Shown here: positions 23,054 through 32,819 of the stretch, piece after piece
Layout: the number at the start of each line of letters is the position of its first letter
Numbering within the stretch: position 1 is the stretch's first letter
Assembly: GCF_029633915.1 (NCBI RefSeq)
Contig: NZ_CP091092.1
Location: 1,488,001-1,552,000 of the forward strand
DNA: 64,000 nt
Reading direction: 5' to 3'
Origin: Methanomicrobium antiquum
GTDB lineage: Archaea; Halobacteriota; Methanomicrobia; Methanomicrobiales; Methanomicrobiaceae
Position numbers and translations under genes: made by a program
Notes under the pieces: generated by a model
What the model was told of the DNA's origin: nothing
Databases searched by the model: none
Seen by the model: only the letters and a program-made list of their open reading frames with translations

Positions 23054-24379
23054 ATGGTAAAGAATAATGCTTTTCGATTTGGTCTTTTGATTCTCGCAAT
23101 TTTTGCGACAATCACTGTTTCAGCAGGTGCAGACGAAATTGTCGGAAACCAGTTGGGTTGGATAACATTCCATACAAATGTAGATGGAGCAACAATTTAC
23201 ATCGATGGAAGTGCGGCAGGAACAACAGTAAATCAGGTATATACAGAAACGGTATACCTTGACGGAAGCCCGGGCAGTTTTCCTAAAACCGCATACGCTG
23301 CAAAATCAGGGTTCACAACATCAGGCACACAAAATCTTGGCACTCCTTCAGCAGGTCAGACACTTAACTATTACATGACACTAAATCCTTCCGGACCATC
23401 TACAGGTTCGATTTATGTGACATCCTCACCTTCCAACGCAATGGTCTACATTGACAATGTTTATGTTGGAAATACACCTCACTCTGTCGGAGGTTATACT
23501 CCTGGAAACCATAATGTCGAAGTTGTCAAATCTGGATATGAAAACTGGGCATCAAGTGTATATGTGACAGCAGGAAGCTCGACTACTGTTCAGGCATCAC
23601 TAAATCCGGTACAGACACAGGGAACAATTTCAGTCAAGTCTTCCCCTTCCGGTGCAAGTGTATACCTTGACGGAAACTACAAAGGTCAGACTCCAACAAC
23701 AATTACCGGAGTTATAAAAGGTGCACATGTAATTGAGCTTAACAAAGCAGGGTACTATGAATGGACAGGTCAGGTAACAGTGTACCCCGGACAGACAGCA
23801 TCTATCTATCCGACACTTCAGCCTCAGCCAGCTCCATCAACAGGAACAATTTATGTTTCATCAACACCAGGCGGGGCTTACGTTTATCTTGACGGATCAT
23901 ATGAAGGAATAACACCAGGTTCAGGTTCAATGGCTATTGACAATGTCAATTCCGGTACACATACATTAAACCTCAAGTATTCCGGATATAAAGATGCAAC
24001 AACAACAGTGACTCTTATCGGAGGTGGAACAGCCTCTGCAAACATTCCTCTAACACCTGTTTCACCTGCGGTTTCAACAGGAACACTTTCCCTGACATCT
24101 ATTCCGACAGGAGCAAATGCATTTGTAAATAACGAGTACAAAGGAATAACACCTTTTACACTCACTCTTGATGCAGGACAGTATGACATAACCTTCAGAC
24201 TCCCCGGATACACAGATGCAACAACAACCGCAACAGTTAATGCAGGTGCATCATCAACAGTCCAGGGCTCTTTGGTTCCTGTTTCACAACAGACACAGTC
24301 AGGCAGTCTTCCATTCGCAGTAATTGGAAGCATCATTATCGCAGGATTTGTTCTTGCAGTAGTGTCAAAAAGAGAATAA
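23054..24379 (+). CDS. Large PEGA-domain surface protein
   Basis: Predicted extracellular protein of 441 residues with a signal peptide (about 1-27), one domain like those in the protein at 74-748 (GNQLGWITFHTNVDGATIYI), then four PEGA domains starting near residues 117, 193, 272 and 347. Each has the pattern GxIxVxSxPxGAxVYLDGxYxGxTP and ends in a Gly-rich VxAGxTxxVxxxLxP strand. A single C-terminal helix (AVIGSIIIAGFVLAVV) and KRE anchor it. It is Thr/Ser-rich, probably glycosylated and part of the cell envelope. No operon partner is close. Confidence 0.88.
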   Translation: MVKNNAFRFGLLILAIFATITVSAGADEIVGNQLGWITFHTNVDGATIYIDGSAAGTTVNQVYTETVYLDGSPGSFPKTAYAAKSGFTTSGTQNLGTPSAGQTLNYYMTLNPSGPSTGSIYVTSSPSNAMVYIDNVYVGNTPHSVGGYTPGNHNVEVVKSGYENWASSVYVTAGSSTTVQASLNPVQTQGTISVKSSPSGASVYLDGNYKGQTPTTITGVIKGAHVIELNKAGYYEWTGQVTVYPGQTASIYPTLQPQPAPSTGTIYVSSTPGGAYVYLDGSYEGITPGSGSMAIDNVNSGTHTLNLKYSGYKDATTTVTLIGGGTASANIPLTPVSPAVSTGTLSLTSIPTGANAFVNNEYKGITPFTLTLDAGQYDITFRLPGYTDATTTATVNAGASSTVQGSLVPVSQQTQSGSLPFAVIGSIIIAGFVLAVVSKRE

Positions 24380-24680
24380 TGAATCAATGAAAGAAATGAG
24401 GAAATAAGAAAAAATTGTGAATGAAAATTAATGTCAGAAAAAAATAAAAATTTTTAACAAATTTTTTCAAGCTTTTTTTCAGGTTTTTAAATCAGGCTTT
24501 TAGTTTGATCAGACAATAGCTGAAGTTTTTATCTCAGTTACCAGTATATTTTGACACAGTAAATTGAACCAGAATTTTGGTGTAATCTGGCATATAGTGC
24601 ACCAGAATTAAATTCCTTAAATCTTCATTCCAGATAAGATATTTTTTAGCCTTTACATCATAATAATGTAATTGAGTTTT
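24380..24680. other. Intergenic region, no gene seen
   Basis: About 300 bases with T tracts after the PEGA gene (24445-24490). ACCAGAATT occurs twice, 33 bases apart (24568-24576 and 24601-24609), near a partly palindromic CCAGAATTTTGG; this may be a regulator site for the radical SAM gene. Confidence 0.4.
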
Positions 24681-26000
24681 ATGAGATTTACCGTCATATC
24701 GCCTGACATCTACACATACGGTGCAATGCTTATTGCCGGAATTTTAAAAAACAACGGATATGACGTTGTTATAAAAAACACTCTTTCTGCGAGTCCAAAA
24801 GACACAGTTCTTTTAAGCCTTTATTCAACTCAGCATCTGATAAATGAAGAAATAAAATCATTTGTTGCAGAAAGAAAAAAAACACAGGGAGAAGTGTTTG
24901 TTGGCGGACCTGTCTCAGCATACCCTGAAATTATTTTTGGCGAGTTAAATCCCGACTGTGTCATTACAGGAGAAGGTGAAGATACAGTTCTTTTAATTGC
25001 AGAGAAGGGAATCTCAGATGATATTCCCGGTCTTTCATATAGAGATGAAAAAGGAGATATAATAAAGACAAAACATGCAGGGCCTGCATCAATAAATCGT
25101 CCTTTGCCTTTGATTCCAAAAGATATAGCAAAACAAAGCATCAGAGGAGCATCTGCATATATTGAAACACACAGAGGATGCACAGGTGCCTGCACATTCT
25201 GCCAGGTGCCAAGATATTTTGGACGTAACATAAGAAGCAGAGAACTTGAGGATATTCTAAAGGAAGTCAGGGAATTTAAAAAACACGGTGCAAAGCGGAT
25301 ATCAGTATCAGGAGGAACAGGATCTCTATACAAGTACAAAAACGGACAGATTGATGAAGATGCTTTTGTTGAACTTTTAAAAGGCATGGCCAAAATTATG
25401 GGCCCCAAAAATGTTTCCTCTCCTGACATCCGTGTGGACTGTATAAGCGATAAAATACTTGATGCAATAAGGGATTATACAATTGGCTGGGTATTTTTTG
25501 GACTTGAATCAGGAAGCGATAATGTGCTTATGCATATGGGGAAGGGTGCCAGAGTAAAGCAGGCATCAGATGCTGTTTACAAATGCCGTGAGCATGGACT
25601 AAAAGTTGCCGGAAGTTTCATTGTCGGCCACCCCCTTGAAACAGAGACAGATTATGAACTGACAAAAGATTTTATTGCAGAACATTATCTTGACGATGTT
25701 TTTGTATCAATTGCAGAACCTATTCCTAAAACGCCGCTAGCAGATCTTGTTTTAAAAACGCCGTCAGAAAAAAACCCCACATATGTTCCACACGCAGGAG
25801 AATATAAAAGCTTGAAGCTTTCAGAGAGTGAAGCAAGATCTTTTGATCTTCAGATGCACGCTGATATGTTCAAACCAAATCTTCATGTTGTAACTGACGA
25901 GGTCTTCAATGCGTATCTTAAAGGAGTCAGAAAAGACGGTTTTGAAGTAAGAGCGGCAACAGATTTATTATTCAAGTACTACTACAATTCTGAAAATTAA
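24681..26000 (+). CDS. B12-binding-type radical SAM protein
   Basis: Predicted radical SAM enzyme of 439 residues. An N-terminal Rossmann-like region (about 1-130: SPDIYTYGAMLIAGILKNNG, then VFVGGPVSAYP and VITGEGE) resembles a cobalamin-binding domain without the classical DxHxxG. It is followed by the cluster motif HRGCTGACTFCQVPRYFGR and the SAM-binding GGTGSLY and GLESGSDNVLMHMGKG segments. Methanogens carry several such proteins (MJ_0865-like), some acting as methyltransferases or marker proteins; its substrate is not evident. The ATG at 24681 follows a TTG alternative at 24672. Confidence 0.8.
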   Translation: MRFTVISPDIYTYGAMLIAGILKNNGYDVVIKNTLSASPKDTVLLSLYSTQHLINEEIKSFVAERKKTQGEVFVGGPVSAYPEIIFGELNPDCVITGEGEDTVLLIAEKGISDDIPGLSYRDEKGDIIKTKHAGPASINRPLPLIPKDIAKQSIRGASAYIETHRGCTGACTFCQVPRYFGRNIRSRELEDILKEVREFKKHGAKRISVSGGTGSLYKYKNGQIDEDAFVELLKGMAKIMGPKNVSSPDIRVDCISDKILDAIRDYTIGWVFFGLESGSDNVLMHMGKGARVKQASDAVYKCREHGLKVAGSFIVGHPLETETDYELTKDFIAEHYLDDVFVSIAEPIPKTPLADLVLKTPSEKNPTYVPHAGEYKSLKLSESEARSFDLQMHADMFKPNLHVVTDEVFNAYLKGVRKDGFEVRAATDLLFKYYYNSEN

Positions 26001-26098: not shown

Positions 26099-28042
26099 GT
26101 GGCATTTAACTTCAAATTACGTTCTTTTAGAAATCTTTCAGATAAACTTCGCTTTATAGGACCAGGTATTCTTCTTGCAATTGCCGCCGCAGGTGAAAGT
26201 GGAATCTCAGAAGCACTTGAAATCGGTGCGCACTATCATTTTGAACTTATCTGGGTTATAATTCTTACATTAATCTTTAAGTTTGCCTTTACAAACGGCA
26301 TTGCAAGATATACACTTTCAACTGGAGAGACAATTTTTGAGGGTCTTACAAAAATACCGGGGCCTAAAAACTGGACCGTTGTTTTCATCACACTGATATT
26401 TCTTTTAGAGATGTTCGCATACGGAGGAATGCTTCTTTTTGGCGCAATCTTCATCGACTACTATCTGCCGGGAGTATACTTTGAAAGGCTTATTGCTTTG
26501 ATAACCCTTGCTGTAATTTTGTTTTTGCTATGGAAAAATTCATACGAAAGAATTGAAATAATCGTTGTTGCAATTGCAATCTGCCTTTTTGTTGGAATAG
26601 GCTACTGTTTGTTAGGATTTAACCTCCCAATAGAGTCAATTGCCGCAGGTGTCATTCCAAAAGTTCCGCCAGGCTCAGTCCTTTCGATTATGGCTTTGAT
26701 GGGCGCAATAGGTTCGGGATTAAATCTTTTATTATATACTGTATGGCTTCATGAGAAAAGTCATGGTGAATGCGGCCCTGATTTTTTCAAAAAATACATA
26801 CGCTATGTAAACCTCGATCTTTTGCTTGCGTTCTTCCTGGTATCTGTAATAACAATTCTTTTCATGACTCTTGGTGTAAGCGGATTTGTTGTATCATTCA
26901 TAGGTCATGGTGAAGAATTAAGTCTTGATGCAATCATTGTTCAGGTTTTATATGTTTTATCAAACGTTCCCTTTGGAAATGCATTCTTTTTGATATTCGG
27001 TTATCTTATAATGTTTGGTGCGGCAATCACAGGAATAGACGGTCGTGCCCGTGCAATATCATCCGTTTTAAAGAGCTCATACTCTACAAAATTTTCAGAG
27101 ATGCAGCTTTACAGGATTCTCATCTTAATTTTTGCAGGAATTATTGCATCCGCGGTTATATTTGGAGAACCCTCAGCCCTGATTCATTCGGTCTCTGCTA
27201 TTGCATCTATCATGTTTGCCCTGCTTGGATTCATGGTAATTTACCTTGATCTAAAACTGCCTGATTATTCACGCGGCAACAGGGTCTGGCTTTTGATAAT
27301 GGTACTTGGAAGTTCCGCATTTTTATTTATGGCGCTAATGATGGAGGGAACTTTCATCATTGTCGGACTTCCGCTCATCGAAAGCCTTGTCCTTTTGATT
27401 ATTCCGGTATACATCTTCACTAAAACCGAGCTTTTCAGAAAGTGCATAACAAGGCGGCTTGAGATAGCAGACTTCATATGGGTCATTCTGATATTTGCCG
27501 CAATCTCAGTTTACGGAGCTTTCAGGGGAATTCCAACAGAAGGAATAGTTATCAATGCAGGTCATGTCGGCCCGATGATTGCAGGAATTATATGCGGGCC
27601 TGCCGCCGGTGCACTTACAGGTCTTGCCGGAGGAGTCTATATTTTTGAAACCGGCGGAAGTACTGCACTTATATTTGCAATTGGAACAATTGCATCAGGG
27701 ATAATCACAGGTTACTTTACATATTACTGGAGAGGAAATCTCACATACTCAAAAGGAGCTTTAATGGTAATTGCCGCAGAGCTTTTCTGCTATGTGGCAG
27801 TTCCGCTCATTCTTCTAAAAGATACAGCATTTGTCGCAGATCTTCTTCGAAGAAGTTTTCTGCCAATGCTCATCGCCAATATGACAGGTGTTTTAATCTT
27901 TATCTACTTCTTAAAAGAAGGAAAATACTGCATTATTCATAAACAAAAAAGCCGGAATAATATTAAGTTTAGGCCTGGAAAAAAAGATGTTTCCCTCTCA
28001 GACGATAAAGGCAAAAAAGAATCCCAACAGGAGAGGTTGTAA
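26099..28042 (+). CDS. NRAMP-fold membrane protein lacking metal ligands, fused to a 5TMR_LYT-like domain
   Basis: Membrane protein of 647 residues. Residues 1-430 align with NRAMP transporters from FIGPG in helix 1 to the later helices, but the metal motif DPGN of helix 1 reads GESG (32-35) and MPH of helix 6 reads SGL (206-208). The classical Asp, Asn and Met ligands are therefore absent. Residues about 455-580 form a further five-helix block with INAGHVGPMIAGIICGP, AGGVYIF and GGSTALIFAIGT, the hallmark of the 5TMR_LYT sensor domain of LytS-type proteins. A hydrophilic tail follows. The start is GTG at 26099. The stop overlaps the binding-protein gene, so the two are coupled. A sensory or atypical transport role is inference. 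Confidence 0.8.
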   Translation: MAFNFKLRSFRNLSDKLRFIGPGILLAIAAAGESGISEALEIGAHYHFELIWVIILTLIFKFAFTNGIARYTLSTGETIFEGLTKIPGPKNWTVVFITLIFLLEMFAYGGMLLFGAIFIDYYLPGVYFERLIALITLAVILFLLWKNSYERIEIIVVAIAICLFVGIGYCLLGFNLPIESIAAGVIPKVPPGSVLSIMALMGAIGSGLNLLLYTVWLHEKSHGECGPDFFKKYIRYVNLDLLLAFFLVSVITILFMTLGVSGFVVSFIGHGEELSLDAIIVQVLYVLSNVPFGNAFFLIFGYLIMFGAAITGIDGRARAISSVLKSSYSTKFSEMQLYRILILIFAGIIASAVIFGEPSALIHSVSAIASIMFALLGFMVIYLDLKLPDYSRGNRVWLLIMVLGSSAFLFMALMMEGTFIIVGLPLIESLVLLIIPVYIFTKTELFRKCITRRLEIADFIWVILIFAAISVYGAFRGIPTEGIVINAGHVGPMIAGIICGPAAGALTGLAGGVYIFETGGSTALIFAIGTIASGIITGYFTYYWRGNLTYSKGALMVIAAELFCYVAVPLILLKDTAFVADLLRRSFLPMLIANMTGVLIFIYFLKEGKYCIIHKQKSRNNIKFRPGKKDVSLSDDKGKKESQQERL

Positions 28043-29238
28043 TGGATATAAAAATACCCCGCTCTAATTTTAGAATTAAGCTTTCAACAATTATATTTCT
28101 GATTCTTATAATCACAGGGCTTGGTTTTCTCTTCCTTTACAATTTTGGCCCTGCACCTGAAAGCTACCCTGAAGAAATTAAAATAGGAGCAATTCTTCCG
28201 CTTTCGGGAAGCATGAAAGAGTACGGAATCGAAATAAAACAGGGAATCGATCTTGCAGTTGAAGATATAAACAGCGCAGGAGGACTTAGGGGAAGGCCTG
28301 TATCTGTTGAATACTTTGATAATATCGGAAGCGAAAATCTGGCTGTTTTTGGATTTAAGGGTATGGTGGATGATAAAATACCAATAGTCATAGGTCCGGT
28401 TTCAAGCAACATCGCACTTGTCCTTGCAGGTCTTGCAGAAGAGTTGGAAACTGTTTTAATCTCTCCTACTGCAACAAATCCGGGTCTTTCGGATTACAAA
28501 AATTATGTTTTCAGAACCATATCGTCTGATGTATATCAGGGAAAAGGCATTGCAAAAGTTCTTCCAACACTAAACCCCGGTGTAAAAACGGCCTCTGTGA
28601 TATACATAAATACAGATTATGGAATCGGACTTAAAAGCTCATTTGAGGATTGGTTCCCTCAGGCAGGAGGAGAAGTTGTTTTTTCAAAAAGCTATGAAGC
28701 AGGAGAGCCTGACTATTACAATCTCATAAACGAGCTTAAAGAGAAAAATTCCGATGCTGTTGTATTGGTAGGAACTGTTGAAGATGCTACAACAATTCTC
28801 AAAAACGCAGATGAGATGAATCTTGATACAATATGGTTCTGCTCGGAGGGTCTTATAAACGCAGTTATTCCTGAAACTGTCGGAGAATATAGTGAAGGAA
28901 TATGTGCTCTTATGCAATCAAGCCAGATACAATCAAATGTATTCATAAACCGATATATGAAAAAATACAATAAAACTGTGGACTGGCCTGTGACTTACGG
29001 ATATGATACCATGATGGTTGTTGCAGAAGCGGTTGGTGCATCAGACTATGATGGAAAGAGCATAAGCGATGCCCTTAAGCGTGTAAGGCATATTGGTCTT
29101 TGCGGGCCGAAGGTATTTGATGAGAATGGAGATATACCGCCTGCCTATGATATTATGAGAATTGAAAAGGGCAAATGGGAAAGAGTCAAATGGAATCAGG
29201 TTGTCTTCAGCGAGGATAGCCAGACAGAGAGTCATTGA
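28042..29238 (+). CDS. Membrane-anchored branched-chain amino acid-type binding protein
   Basis: Extracytoplasmic binding protein of 398 residues (type I periplasmic fold, LivJ/ANF-like). The N-terminal helix (about 13-35) has no lipobox or clear cleavage site and so probably stays as an anchor. The mature fold starts EIKIGAILPLSGSMKEYG and contains GGLRGRPVSVEYFDN, VIGPVSSNIAL, LISPTATNPGLSD and YGYDTMMVVAEAV. Its ATG overlaps the stop of the NRAMP-like gene. No ABC permease or ATPase of the Liv type is adjacent, so it may present a ligand to that membrane partner; this is inference. Confidence 0.88.
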   Translation: MDIKIPRSNFRIKLSTIIFLILIITGLGFLFLYNFGPAPESYPEEIKIGAILPLSGSMKEYGIEIKQGIDLAVEDINSAGGLRGRPVSVEYFDNIGSENLAVFGFKGMVDDKIPIVIGPVSSNIALVLAGLAEELETVLISPTATNPGLSDYKNYVFRTISSDVYQGKGIAKVLPTLNPGVKTASVIYINTDYGIGLKSSFEDWFPQAGGEVVFSKSYEAGEPDYYNLINELKEKNSDAVVLVGTVEDATTILKNADEMNLDTIWFCSEGLINAVIPETVGEYSEGICALMQSSQIQSNVFINRYMKKYNKTVDWPVTYGYDTMMVVAEAVGASDYDGKSISDALKRVRHIGLCGPKVFDENGDIPPAYDIMRIEKGKWERVKWNQVVFSEDSQTESH

Positions 29239-29357: not shown

Positions 29358-30182
29358 CTACTCAGATAATTTCTCTTTTTTTCTTAGGTTCTTCTTAAAC
29401 CCGATTACTATCAGATATACTATAACACTAAACAGAATTATTGTGGCGCCGGATGGAACGTTTAGTTCATATGAGAGAAATATTCCTGTTGTTGTAAAAA
29501 AAATCCCCGTCAGAACTGACAGATAAATCATCATTTTAAGATTACCTGTGAATTCACGTGCAATTGCCGCAGGGAGAGTCAAAAGCGCAATTACAAGTAT
29601 TATTCCTACCACCTGAATCAGCATAACAATAGTAACAGCAGTTAGAATCAAAAGGACTGTCATCACAAACCCTGATGGAATATTCATTACTGATGCATAC
29701 TCTTCATCAAATGTAACTGCCAGAAAATGATTGTAAAAGAGTCCGATAATTAAAATAATTCCAATAACTATTGCAAACATCAGGAAAAGATCTGATGAGG
29801 GAACCAGCAGGATGTTTCCGAATAAATATCCAAAAAGATCAGGCGCGAATCCCGGTGTTAAATATATAAGCATAATTCCAAAAGCCATTCCCCCTGCCCA
29901 AACAGCGCCAACAAGAGTGTCCAGATGCTGATGAGCAACGCTTCTAAGCCTGGCAATAAAAGCCGCAACAGCAATACAAAAAACCATTGCTCCGGCTATT
30001 GGATCAAATCCAAGATAATATCCAAGCCCTATTCCTCCAAAGGATGCATGCGAAATTCCACCGGATAAAGAGACCATTCTTTTAACAACCACAAAACTTC
30101 CGATTATTCCGCAGGCAACACTTGCTAAAATCCCTGCTAAAAGAGCGTTTCTAAAAAATTCATAACCAAGAGCGGCAATCAT
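29358..30182 (-). CDS. Metal ABC transporter permease (ZnuB/ABC-3 type)
   Basis: Membrane subunit of 274 residues with about eight or nine helices, of the Zn/Mn ABC-3 family. Family landmarks are GSFVVVKRMVSLSGGISHASFGGIGLGYYLG, with the conserved His in the helix facing the pore, and the region ALLTLPAAIAREFTGNL. The start ATG at 30182 has GGAGAG upstream; a longer reading back to 30263 overlaps the ATPase gene and lacks hydrophobic sequence. It is the third gene of a minus-strand operon (binding protein, ATPase, permease). Confidence 0.9.
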   Translation of the reverse strand: MIAALGYEFFRNALLAGILASVACGIIGSFVVVKRMVSLSGGISHASFGGIGLGYYLGFDPIAGAMVFCIAVAAFIARLRSVAHQHLDTLVGAVWAGGMAFGIMLIYLTPGFAPDLFGYLFGNILLVPSSDLFLMFAIVIGIILIIGLFYNHFLAVTFDEEYASVMNIPSGFVMTVLLILTAVTIVMLIQVVGIILVIALLTLPAAIAREFTGNLKMMIYLSVLTGIFFTTTGIFLSYELNVPSGATIILFSVIVYLIVIGFKKNLRKKEKLSE

Positions 30183-30205
30183 AATCTCTCCTTTATCCTC
30201 CTGTG

Positions 30206-30961
30206 TTAGTGCTTCTCCAAAACCCGGTGGGCAAGGCCATGGGCAATCAGATCTACCGGACATTTGTAGGCGGAAAGAAGCATATCATCGGTAATTTCAT
30301 TATTGTTGTGTGTGTAGAGTTTTTTGTTTAAACATGCAATAATATCAATATTGGATGACAGAACACCAATATCGTGGGTTACAAGAACAATTGTCATCTT
30401 TTTATGAAGATCCATTAAGATATCATGGAATTTGTCCTCTGTTGGAGAGTCAACATAAACAGTTGGTTCGTCCAGCAGGAGTATTTTGGGTTTTCCAACT
30501 ATTGCGCGTGCAATAATCGCTCTTTGTTGTTCACCACCGGAAATCTCACTTATGCTTCTTGAAGAAAGTTCAGAAATTCCCAAAGATTCTAAAGCCTCAT
30601 CAACAAGCTCGTAATCAGAAGCGGAATATTTTTTTCTAAGGCCTCCTATGTGTCCCAGCCTTCCGGTAAGCACCATCTCAGAAACAGTAATTGGATATTT
30701 GAAATCAAATGTATGAAACTGCGGCACATATCCTAAAAGATAGCGGTTTTTTTTAGGTTCCTCACCATATATTTCAACTGTTCCAAAATCAGGTTTTATA
30801 AGTCCAAGGATTACTTTCAAAAGGATTGATTTTCCGCCGCCATTTGGACCGATTATTGCATAGGACTCTCCCTCTTTAATTTTAAAATCAACATTGTCAA
30901 GAACTTTTTGATTTTCCTTGTAAACTGTGACCTTTTTTACTTCAACAGCAGTATCAGGCAT
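30206..30961 (-). CDS. Metal ABC transporter ATPase (ZnuC type)
   Basis: ATPase of 251 residues. Walker A is GPNGGGKSILLK (note GGGKS), the Q-loop LGYVPQFHTFDFKYP, the signature EISGGEQQRAIIARA, Walker B ILLLDEPTVYVD and the switch VTHD. The Q-loop region (PQ then DFKYPITV) is characteristic of zinc and manganese transporters. It is two bases from the binding-protein gene and 23 from the permease gene. Confidence 0.93.
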   Translation of the reverse strand: MPDTAVEVKKVTVYKENQKVLDNVDFKIKEGESYAIIGPNGGGKSILLKVILGLIKPDFGTVEIYGEEPKKNRYLLGYVPQFHTFDFKYPITVSEMVLTGRLGHIGGLRKKYSASDYELVDEALESLGISELSSRSISEISGGEQQRAIIARAIVGKPKILLLDEPTVYVDSPTEDKFHDILMDLHKKMTIVLVTHDIGVLSSNIDIIACLNKKLYTHNNNEITDDMLLSAYKCPVDLIAHGLAHRVLEKH

Positions 30962-30963
30962 AT

Positions 30964-31860
30964 TTAGACCTCCGAGAATGCTTTGGCAACAGATTCTAAA
31001 TTTTCAATGTAGTTTTCAGAGAGCGGATCAATCAAAACCACTTTTCCTGATATTGCATTGGCAATTACCTCAGCACTTCTTGTAGTATGCTCAGGTGATG
31101 CAAATACAACTTTTATGTCCTTTTCTTTTGCCATATCAATTATTTCGGCAATTTCTGCAGGTGAAGGCTCTTTTCCATCACTTTCAACAGATATAAGATT
31201 TAAAGAATAATCCCTTGCAAAGTATGACCATGCCGGATGGTAAACTAAAATTGTCTCTTCTTCTCTTCCGGAAAGCTCGGATTTGATTTTTTTGTCAGCC
31301 TCATCTATTTTTTCAGCGTAATTTTGAAAGTTAGCCAGAAAATAATCTTTCTCATCAGGACTTACCTCAATTAAACCTTCACAGAAGTTCTCAGCCATTT
31401 TTTTCATATTTTGTGGTGACAACCAGATATGAGGATCCACTCCATTGTTTTCTCCGGTTATTAAAGATATTCCGTTTGAACAATCAACAATTTTCATATC
31501 CGGATTTATGCTTTTTATTTTATCCATCCAGGCAAGCTCAAATTCTATTTGAGAGCCGGTCATTGCATAAAGTTCGGTTTCAGAGAGGGCTTTTAACTGC
31601 CCCGATGTAAGCTCATATGTATGAGGATTTGAGCCGGGCGGAATCATGACATAAACATCAACCCTATCTTTTCCTACAGCCTCTGCAAACTCCTTTTCAG
31701 GAAGTATTGATACAGCAACAGTTAATTTGGAATTGTTATCTGAGTAGTCAGAGATGTTTTCAGAGTTTTGTGTACACCCTGAAAACAAAATCGTTAAAAA
31801 ATTCATCATAATAAGGGCAATTAACAGAAGAAATATATCGTTTCTTATCCCTGCTTTCAT
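30964..31860 (-). CDS. Metal-binding lipoprotein of the ZnuA/TroA family
   Basis: Extracytoplasmic binding protein of about 298 residues. A lipobox FSGC follows an N-terminal hydrophobic helix. The cluster A-I ligands are visible: His in NPHTYELT, His in DPHIWLSP, His in YHPAWSYFARDY and an acidic residue in ASPEHTT/LIDPLS. The His-rich loop of typical ZnuA is missing, so zinc and manganese cannot be told apart. ATG 31860, with GGGGA upstream, is preferred to 31890. The inverted repeat at 31988-32019 upstream is a plausible metal-regulator site. Confidence 0.9.
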   Translation of the reverse strand: MKAGIRNDIFLLLIALIMMNFLTILFSGCTQNSENISDYSDNNSKLTVAVSILPEKEFAEAVGKDRVDVYVMIPPGSNPHTYELTSGQLKALSETELYAMTGSQIEFELAWMDKIKSINPDMKIVDCSNGISLITGENNGVDPHIWLSPQNMKKMAENFCEGLIEVSPDEKDYFLANFQNYAEKIDEADKKIKSELSGREEETILVYHPAWSYFARDYSLNLISVESDGKEPSPAEIAEIIDMAKEKDIKVVFASPEHTTRSAEVIANAISGKVVLIDPLSENYIENLESVAKAFSEV

Positions 31861-31987
31861 AGTATTCCCCATAATTGTTTTATTTTTCATATTGCCATTC
31901 AGCCTATAATTTATTTTGGGTAGAAATCCTAAAAACCAAAAAAAATGTTTTAATTCAGTCTATATTCTATCCAGAAGTTAATATTTT

Positions 31988-32204: not shown

Positions 32205-32819
32205 ATGACCCGAAATTTAAAATCTTTTGAAGAGGCCTCAGAGTTTCACGGGCATAAATGCCCGGGTCTTGCTTATGGATACAGGGCCGCAGAATATGCA
32301 TTAAAAGAACTGTTCCAGGACAGAGCGCAGGATGAAGAGCTTGTAGCAATTGTTGAAAACGATGCATGCGGTATTGATGCAATCCAGTTTTTAACCGGCT
32401 GTACAATAGGGAAAGGGAATCTTATTTTCAATGATTACGGAAAGCAGGTTTATACATTTATTAAAAGAAACGGAAACGATGCCGTAAGGATTGTTCAAAA
32501 AGATAAAACCTCAATGGGTGATTTTGACAAAGTCACAGGTGAACTTTCAGATAAAGTCTTTTCAAACACTGCAACAGATGAGGAGAAAAATGAATTTTTC
32601 AGGCGAAGAGAGATAGTTATGAATAAAATTCTTCAGATGCCTGTTGAGGATTTATATACCTTAAAACACATTAAACCGCAAATTCCGGAGAAGGCAAGAT
32701 TGTTCAAATCCCACAAATGTGCAAGATGCGGAGAGAATGTATCTGAATCAAGGGCAAGAATTGAAAACGGAGAGATTGTCTGTATCCCGTGCTTCAATGA
32801 ATATTCCCGGGGATGGTAA
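32205..32819 (+). CDS. fmdE: FmdE-family protein with C-terminal zinc ribbon
   Basis: FmdE proteins are associated with molybdenum formylmethanofuran dehydrogenase, though their exact role is unsettled. The 204-residue protein has the FmdE domain (about 1-140), starting with SFEEASEFHGHKCPGLAYGY and including VENDACGIDAIQFLTGCT and GKGNL, with conserved His and Cys residues. Residues 168-198 form a zinc ribbon (HKCARCGEN, then VCIPCF). Its promoter region carries an unusual repeat array. The neighbouring metal transporter and a BASS carrier make metal-related control conceivable. Confidence 0.88.
   Translation: MTRNLKSFEEASEFHGHKCPGLAYGYRAAEYALKELFQDRAQDEELVAIVENDACGIDAIQFLTGCTIGKGNLIFNDYGKQVYTFIKRNGNDAVRIVQKDKTSMGDFDKVTGELSDKVFSNTATDEEKNEFFRRREIVMNKILQMPVEDLYTLKHIKPQIPEKARLFKSHKCARCGENVSESRARIENGEIVCIPCFNEYSRGW

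Follow-up and report, generated by a model that had tools for sequence, protein, structure and literature searches.

An NRAMP-5TMR fusion protein paired with a LivJ-type binding protein in Methanomicrobiales: a candidate binding-protein-dependent transporter or receptor

Described relatives and precedents

Proteins in which an NRAMP-like membrane part carries a 5TMR domain at its C-terminus, most of them archaeal, were described by Partipilo and Slotboom in 2024, who suggested that ion transport and sensing are joined in them (PMC11109136). The 5TMR domain has the fold of the ECF S-components, and in receptors its NxR motif is the presumed site of ligand binding (PMC11109136). The fusion protein considered here, P0001 of the methanogen Methanomicrobium antiquum, shares with the published fusions the domain order, the C-terminal position of the 5TMR domain and a mainly archaeal occurrence, and the two are very probably the same protein family; the statement in a first-pass annotation of this DNA that no such fusion had been described is therefore superseded. 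In the accessible part of that publication the NRAMP portion is taken for a metal transporter, with no mention of a loss of the metal ligands or of a substrate-binding protein (SBP) as partner.

In DraNramp the metal ligands are D56, N59 and M230 together with two carbonyls (PMC10185341). Proteins without the motifs DPGN and MPH have been set apart as a “Nramp-related” group, most of whose subgroups are uncharacterised (PMC12873925). The Nramp-related NRMT and G-motif groups (EleNRMT, YcsG/MntG, PxpT) resemble P0001 in combining an NRAMP fold with the absence of DPGN and MPH, but, unlike the pair analysed here, they have been described with neither an SBP nor a 5TMR domain, and the motifs GE(S/A)G, GSGLN and GMDGRARA are, among the aligned rows, peculiar to the P0001 subfamily. 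The plant protein EIN2 offers another likeness, in that its NRAMP-like membrane part is reported to act in signalling and not in metal transport; it differs from the pair in its large soluble C-terminal domain and in having no SBP. Receptor kinases of the LytS/YpdA type have the 5TMR domain in common with P0001, which differs from them in having no cytosolic output, in the C-terminal location of its 5TMR domain and in not keeping NxR.

Before 2025 only the TRAP and TTT systems were known as secondary transporters that require an SBP, and TAXI-GltS was then added (PMC12344293). These systems are like the pair in that a dedicated SBP gene is coupled to a non-ABC membrane partner (PMC12344293), but their carriers are thought to be elevators, whereas the partner in the pair has a LeuT fold and is associated with a LivJ-type SBP; LeuT-fold carriers work by rocking (PMC10862720). 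Literature searches on NRAMP proteins with SBPs, on 5TMR domains in methanogens and on SBP-dependent LeuT carriers gave no account of the pair, and nothing in the literature searched describes the coupling to an SBP, the structure of the clades, the mutual exclusion with LivFGHM or a non-metal reading.

The two proteins of the locus

The window, by which is meant the whole stretch of 64,000 nucleotides analysed, comes from the complete 2.44 Mb genome of M. antiquum, and all features of the pair lie on its plus strand. P0001 (26099–28042) encodes the NRAMP-5TMR fusion of 647 aa from a GTG start with a GGAG-like ribosome-binding site upstream; P0002 (28042–29238) encodes an anchored LivJ-type SBP of 398 aa and is likewise preceded by a site of the GGAG type. 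The two genes share one base in the stop/start overlap TAATG (28040–28044), as the first-pass annotation had read it. That annotation had also stated that the pair has no ABC permease or ATPase beside it, which is incorrect, since a zinc/manganese-type set (ABC-3 permease, ATPase and a ZnuA-type binding protein of its own) lies 120 bp downstream of P0002 (29358–31890, minus strand), convergent to the pair. The stronger statement that can replace it is that the host genome is without any Liv-type permease. No T and A/A' proteins of an ECF module are found among the genes adjacent to the pair in the window.

The assignment of the first domain of P0001 to the NRAMP fold, of its C-terminal part to 5TMR_LYT and of P0002 to the LivJ-type proteins, all proposed from the letters alone, holds under profile and structure comparison, and the Pfam matches of the pair are far above chance. 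The Pfam Nramp profile PF01566 matches residues 39–382 of P0001 (E 2e-14; 53.9 bits against a cut-off of 29.8), within an NRAMP/LeuT-fold part that is modelled with 12 helices over residues 18–441 (26150–27421). An AlphaFold2 model built from 44 aligned relatives (pLDDT 86.1, pTM 0.79) finds its best PDB match by Foldseek in the Bacteroides fragilis Nramp 10ky (TM 0.84 on target length), followed by EleNRMT (0.81) and YcsG (0.79), and then by amino-acid carriers of the APC superfamily, among them BasC, ApcT and GadC, and by Mhp1. YcsG was considered as the closest solved relative and rejected, for its fold match (9a52) is accompanied by no sequence match at E <=10. Taken with the model of P0002 described below, the predictions confirm the NRAMP and LivJ-type folds of the pair.

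Profile alignment to solved NRAMPs places DPGN of TM1 opposite G32-E33-S34-G35 and MPH of TM6 opposite S206-G207-L208, which upholds the earlier observation that GESG and SGL stand where the canonical metal-ligand motifs would be. In the alignment of 44 rows, the motif G32-E33-S34-G35..E38 (26192–26212) replaces DPGN, with G32 and G35 invariant and E33 present in at least 90% of rows; G205-S-G-L-N-L-L-L-Y-(S/T)214 in TM6 (26711–26740) replaces MPHNLYLHS, and TM8 carries G-(M/I)-D-G-R-A-R-A at residues 312–319 (27032–27055). The subfamily consensus, to which there are few exceptions, is GE(S/A)G in TM1, G(S/A)GLN(L/I)(L/M)LYS in TM6 and G(M/I/L)D(G/A)RARA in TM8, and conservation within the fusion protein is highest in TM1, TM2 and TM6.

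The first-pass annotation had held that its reading would fail if other NRAMPs with GESG were known metal carriers. No GESG occurs outside the subfamily among the PF01566 proteins aligned, and to that extent the reading stands; the absence of DPGN and MPH, on the other hand, is not special to this subfamily. Several other archaeal PF01566 clades are also without both motifs, each bearing a motif of its own, and P0001 has the properties of the Nramp-related proteins, a broad and paraphyletic assemblage defined by an NRAMP fold minus the canonical motifs (PMC12873925). The loss of DPGN and MPH alone is thus unremarkable, because Nramp-related proteins in general share it.

The 5TM-5TMR_LYT domain, with its S-component fold, occupies residues 444–606 (27428–27916; PF07694, E 4.3e-27, 95.2 bits against a cut-off of 24.6). 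At the position of its NxR ligand motif (27554–27562) P0001 has N486-A-G and so has lost the Arg, which is present in 22 of 40 relatives and missing in the other 18, including the subclade of P0001. Within this subclade pN/pS is 0.26–0.46 for the 5TMR domain as against 0.14–0.24 for the NRAMP part; the 5TMR domain thus changes faster, yet it is under purifying selection, as are both genes of the pair. Because the 5TMR domain loses its Arg and changes faster, the NRAMP core is, as judged from the aligned sequences, the constant element of the fusion protein. Domains of the 5TMR type are familiar above all from receptors, a circumstance that counts against a transporter reading.

The Peripla_BP_6 profile PF13458 matches P0002 with an E of 2.6e-44 over residues 45–377, the ligand-binding domain (28174–29172), and the AlphaFold2 model of the protein (pLDDT 87.7) has 3hut, 2liv and 2lbp as its top PDB matches (TM 0.85–0.86), so that both fold and profile are those of the LivJ/Peripla_BP_6 proteins. 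The N-terminal helix noticed in the first pass is modelled with good confidence as a membrane anchor at residues 14–35 (28081–28146). No lipobox Cys is present at this helix, and an anchor helix opens the SBP of every relative except those of one genus, which have a lipobox-like Cys. In Leu/Ile/Val-binding proteins S79, T102, Y150 and E226 touch the alpha-amino and carboxyl groups of the bound amino acid. The pocket residues S122, T145, D163, Y193 and E269 of P0002 correspond to S79, T102, D121, Y150 and E226 of LBP, and the equivalents of these five residues are kept in 32–33 of 33 SBPs, with Asp or Glu at position 226. Since the LBP contact residues are kept, the predicted ligand of the SBP is an alpha-amino acid or one of its close analogues.

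Conservation of the gene pair and exclusion of LivH/M

In the tree of fusion-protein relatives, group A (clade A) is a single branch of 27 rows with 99/98 support. Conservation of the gene pair in related genomes had been named in the first pass as a check on the proposed coupling, and it is borne out: across several Methanomicrobiales families, an SBP gene adjoins the fusion gene at every clade-A locus where the contig has room (32 loci). The SBP gene lies directly downstream at all but one locus, the gene order being reversed in Methanospirillaceae; a 4-base gene overlap is present at 15 of the 32, and at one locus the SBP gene is frameshifted. The evolutionary distances of the fusion protein and of the SBP are correlated (r 0.89, with 0 of 2000 permutations as high), as co-inheritance predicts, although co-inheritance of the pair is to be expected equally for a receptor. 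The flanks are syntenic in four genera, while in other genera the surroundings differ and the pair alone persists. A functional tie of the pair to the metal ABC genes beside it, or to the MCR glutamine methyltransferase upstream, was considered and rejected: these genes are parts of a synteny block that is kept in those four genera and gone elsewhere, while the pair stays.

Group B consists of paraphyletic fusion relatives without an SBP gene. Many members of the wider subfamily are of this kind, an observation that counts against a transporter reading. Single-domain relatives in Methanoregulaceae have GWVG or GWIG in TM1, and one relative with three 5TMR domains comes from another family of the same phylum. 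A split, two-subunit NRAMP in Methanocalculus-type genomes was considered and discarded, since one junction contains NN and the other resembles a draft frameshift. The wider distribution was assessed by one two-motif scan of genome contigs, bacteria included, which returned Methanomicrobiales only.

The Nramp, 5TMR_LYT and Peripla_BP_6 domains each occur exactly once in the host genome, and each of these single copies lies within P0001 or P0002. The SBPs of LivFGHM (HAAT) systems belong to the same family as P0002, but the permease that such an ABC system requires is missing from the host: a search for the LivH/M type (BPD_transp_2), positive in 12 of 14 control genomes, returned zero in the complete genome. 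Nor do the two systems occur together in any of the Methanomicrobiales genomes examined. Among 232 genomes of the order, a pair-type SBP is present in 37, LivH/M in 91 and both in none, so that LivH/M is found in 0 of 37 pair genomes versus 91 of 195 others (naive Fisher p ~1e-9, a value inflated by relatedness); the exclusion has p ~0.006 at the level of genera. Opposite contrasts are provided by genus g9 of family f1, which has LivH/M without the pair, and genus g23 of family f5, which has the pair without LivH/M. It might be supposed from this mutual exclusion that the pair and LivFGHM have a substrate in common. The supposition is weakened by the three LivFGHM-linked SBPs checked, in which Ser stands at T102, Thr or Ala at D121 and Phe at Y202; given these differences at several positions of the pocket, a common substrate does not follow.

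Transporter or receptor

The first-pass annotation had offered an unconventional transporter or a two-component membrane sensor as explanations of the locus, and these are still the right pair of options. The best explanation, to which we give close to an even chance, is that the pair forms a secondary transporter with a LeuT-fold core that depends on its SBP and carries an amino acid or something closely analogous. It is supported by the strict coupling of the SBP gene to the fusion gene, the kept amino-acid pocket residues, the lack of a LivH/M partner, the conservation of TM1, TM2 and TM6, purifying selection on both genes and the presence of APC amino-acid carriers among the fold neighbours. 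Somewhat more tentative is the narrower proposal that it is the first SBP-dependent LeuT (rocking-bundle) carrier known to us, in which a LivJ-type SBP would serve an NRAMP-fold amino-acid carrier with a built-in S-component-like domain. What we infer, namely a physical complex, transport, an exact substrate and a role for the 5TMR domain, would combine in the following way. Outside the cell, the tethered LivJ-type SBP would trap an alpha-amino acid or close analogue. Passed on to the NRAMP-fold partner, this substrate would then move between TM1 (GESG) and TM6 (GSGLN) along a pathway of the LeuT type. The break points of these two helices, with the metal ligands rebuilt to GESG and GSGLN, would bind the substrate, and the C-terminal 5TMR domain, with its S-component fold, may act in docking, gating or regulation. 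The SBP of the pair is genetically coupled to an integral membrane carrier that is not of the ABC type, an arrangement for which TAXI-GltS provides a precedent as a secondary carrier that works with an SBP (PMC12344293). In the NRAMP family, PxpT of Corynebacterium glutamicum sets a precedent for organic substrates, being required for growth on, and uptake of, the amino-acid derivative 5-oxoproline (PMC13274462). It counts against the transporter reading that no coupling-ion site was identified in P0001.

The main rival, which we regard as unlikely though considerably less so than the others, is a receptor, or transceptor, in which the ligand-loaded SBP would dock on a non-transporting NRAMP-5TMR protein whose change of shape would signal to a separate cytosolic kinase; it is modelled, by analogy, on LytS-type 5TMR receptors, which signal within one chain. 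5TMR domains do occur in receptor kinases (PMC11109136), and the fold of the SBP also resembles, by structure comparison, the ectodomains of the GABA-B and mGlu receptors. In five group-B genomes, moreover, the fusion gene directly follows a gene for a soluble REC-HisKA_2-HATPase kinase with no membrane part, in a cluster that also holds CheW, an MCP and msrA. No kinase or regulator gene, however, adjoins the pair, whether in the window or in the annotated clade-A neighbourhoods, a Pfam search finds no cytosolic output domain past residue 606 of P0001, and the C-terminal 40 residues are the least conserved stretch of the fusion protein. The loss of the NxR Arg in nearly half of the members, while the NRAMP core motifs stayed, likewise argues against a receptor.

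Improbable, in our estimate, is a transporter of divalent metals whose site has been altered and whose 5TMR domain would couple metal uptake to sensing, as Partipilo and Slotboom (2024) read it. Family membership speaks for it, both through PF01566 and through NCBIfam, which assigns P0001, with 80.6 bits above a cut-off of 50, to NF037982, “Nramp family divalent metal transporter”; the MntH profile of NCBIfam scores 26.4 where 430 is required. EleNRMT moves Mg2+ in spite of the non-canonical motifs of Nramp-related proteins (PMC12873925), YcsG, a relative of PxpT, is reported to be a Mn2+ importer (PMC10448178), and a metal-type ABC cluster lies next to the pair. That cluster is nevertheless convergent, has its own SBP and belongs to the synteny block lost in other genera. 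Metal transport is disfavoured by the loss of the ligands, DPGN and MPH being missing from 44 of 44 aligned rows, and by the type of the partner SBP, which is LivJ-like with amino-acid pocket residues, unlike the metal-binding ZnuA type. Least probable of all is that P0001 and P0002 are two neighbours with no joint function, an orphan SBP having been kept by synteny, for although linkage by itself is no proof of interaction and the flanking genes on both sides are syntenic too in four genera, the pair outlasts both the loss of the surrounding block and the reversal of gene order, its genes overlap at start and stop, and there is no other Liv-type permease for the SBP to serve.

Taken as a whole, the analysis suggests that the SBP-coupled, metal-site-free NRAMP-5TMR pair of one methanogen order is an undescribed kind of SBP-fed transporter or receptor. 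The authors of the TAXI-GltS work proposed that SBP-dependent secondary transporters may need to operate as elevators, and that further classes would allow a test (PMC12344293). The pair makes this proposal testable, and an SBP-dependent LeuT-fold carrier, if the transporter reading is true, would contradict it directly. If the pair is instead a receptor, it would represent a kind of LivJ-NRAMP-5TMR sensor without description in the literature searched. As transporter or as receptor, the database name “divalent metal transporter” would need correcting, and the pair would give methanogens without LivFGHM a likely amino-acid system.

Genes flanking the pair

Upstream of the fusion and binding-protein genes lies a gene for the methyl-coenzyme M reductase glutamine C-methyltransferase (24672-26000, +), which matches the TIGR04014 profile at 644 bits against a cut-off of 360, and convergent to them is a zinc/manganese-type importer comprising an ABC-3 permease, an ATPase and a ZnuA-type binding protein (29358-31890, -). 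The window also encodes a surface protein (23054-24379, +) that carries five PEGA repeats as well as a membrane helix at its C-terminus, and a DksA/TraR-type zinc finger fused to an FmdE domain (32205-32819, +).

Variation among the relatives

In other genomes, the fusion gene reads as two overlapping ORFs at loci L060 (6023-7941, -) and L146 (6737-8657, -), but this is probably an artefact, because the junction includes NN in one case and resembles a draft frameshift in the other.

Two 5TMR domains occur at L111 (6097-8634), and three follow a diverged NRAMP-like part in the 1126-aa protein at L136 (7328-10708, -). Single-domain relatives from Methanoregulaceae-type genomes (L130, L135, L137 and L138) have neither 5TMR domain nor binding protein, and GWVG or GWIG replaces GESG in their TM1. 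At L049-L053, a gene for a soluble REC-HisKA_2-HATPase kinase directly precedes a fusion gene of group B, which lacks the binding-protein gene, and both are clustered with msrA, CheW and MCP genes.

Other LivJ-type proteins

Two tandem LivJ-type domains form a 761-aa lipoprotein at L148 (5795-8080, -), with no permease nearby. At L149 (4746-6823, +), a LivJ-type lipoprotein gene is followed by one for a putative membrane protein which, from its sequence, looks like a Cache-HAMP-type protein without an output domain.
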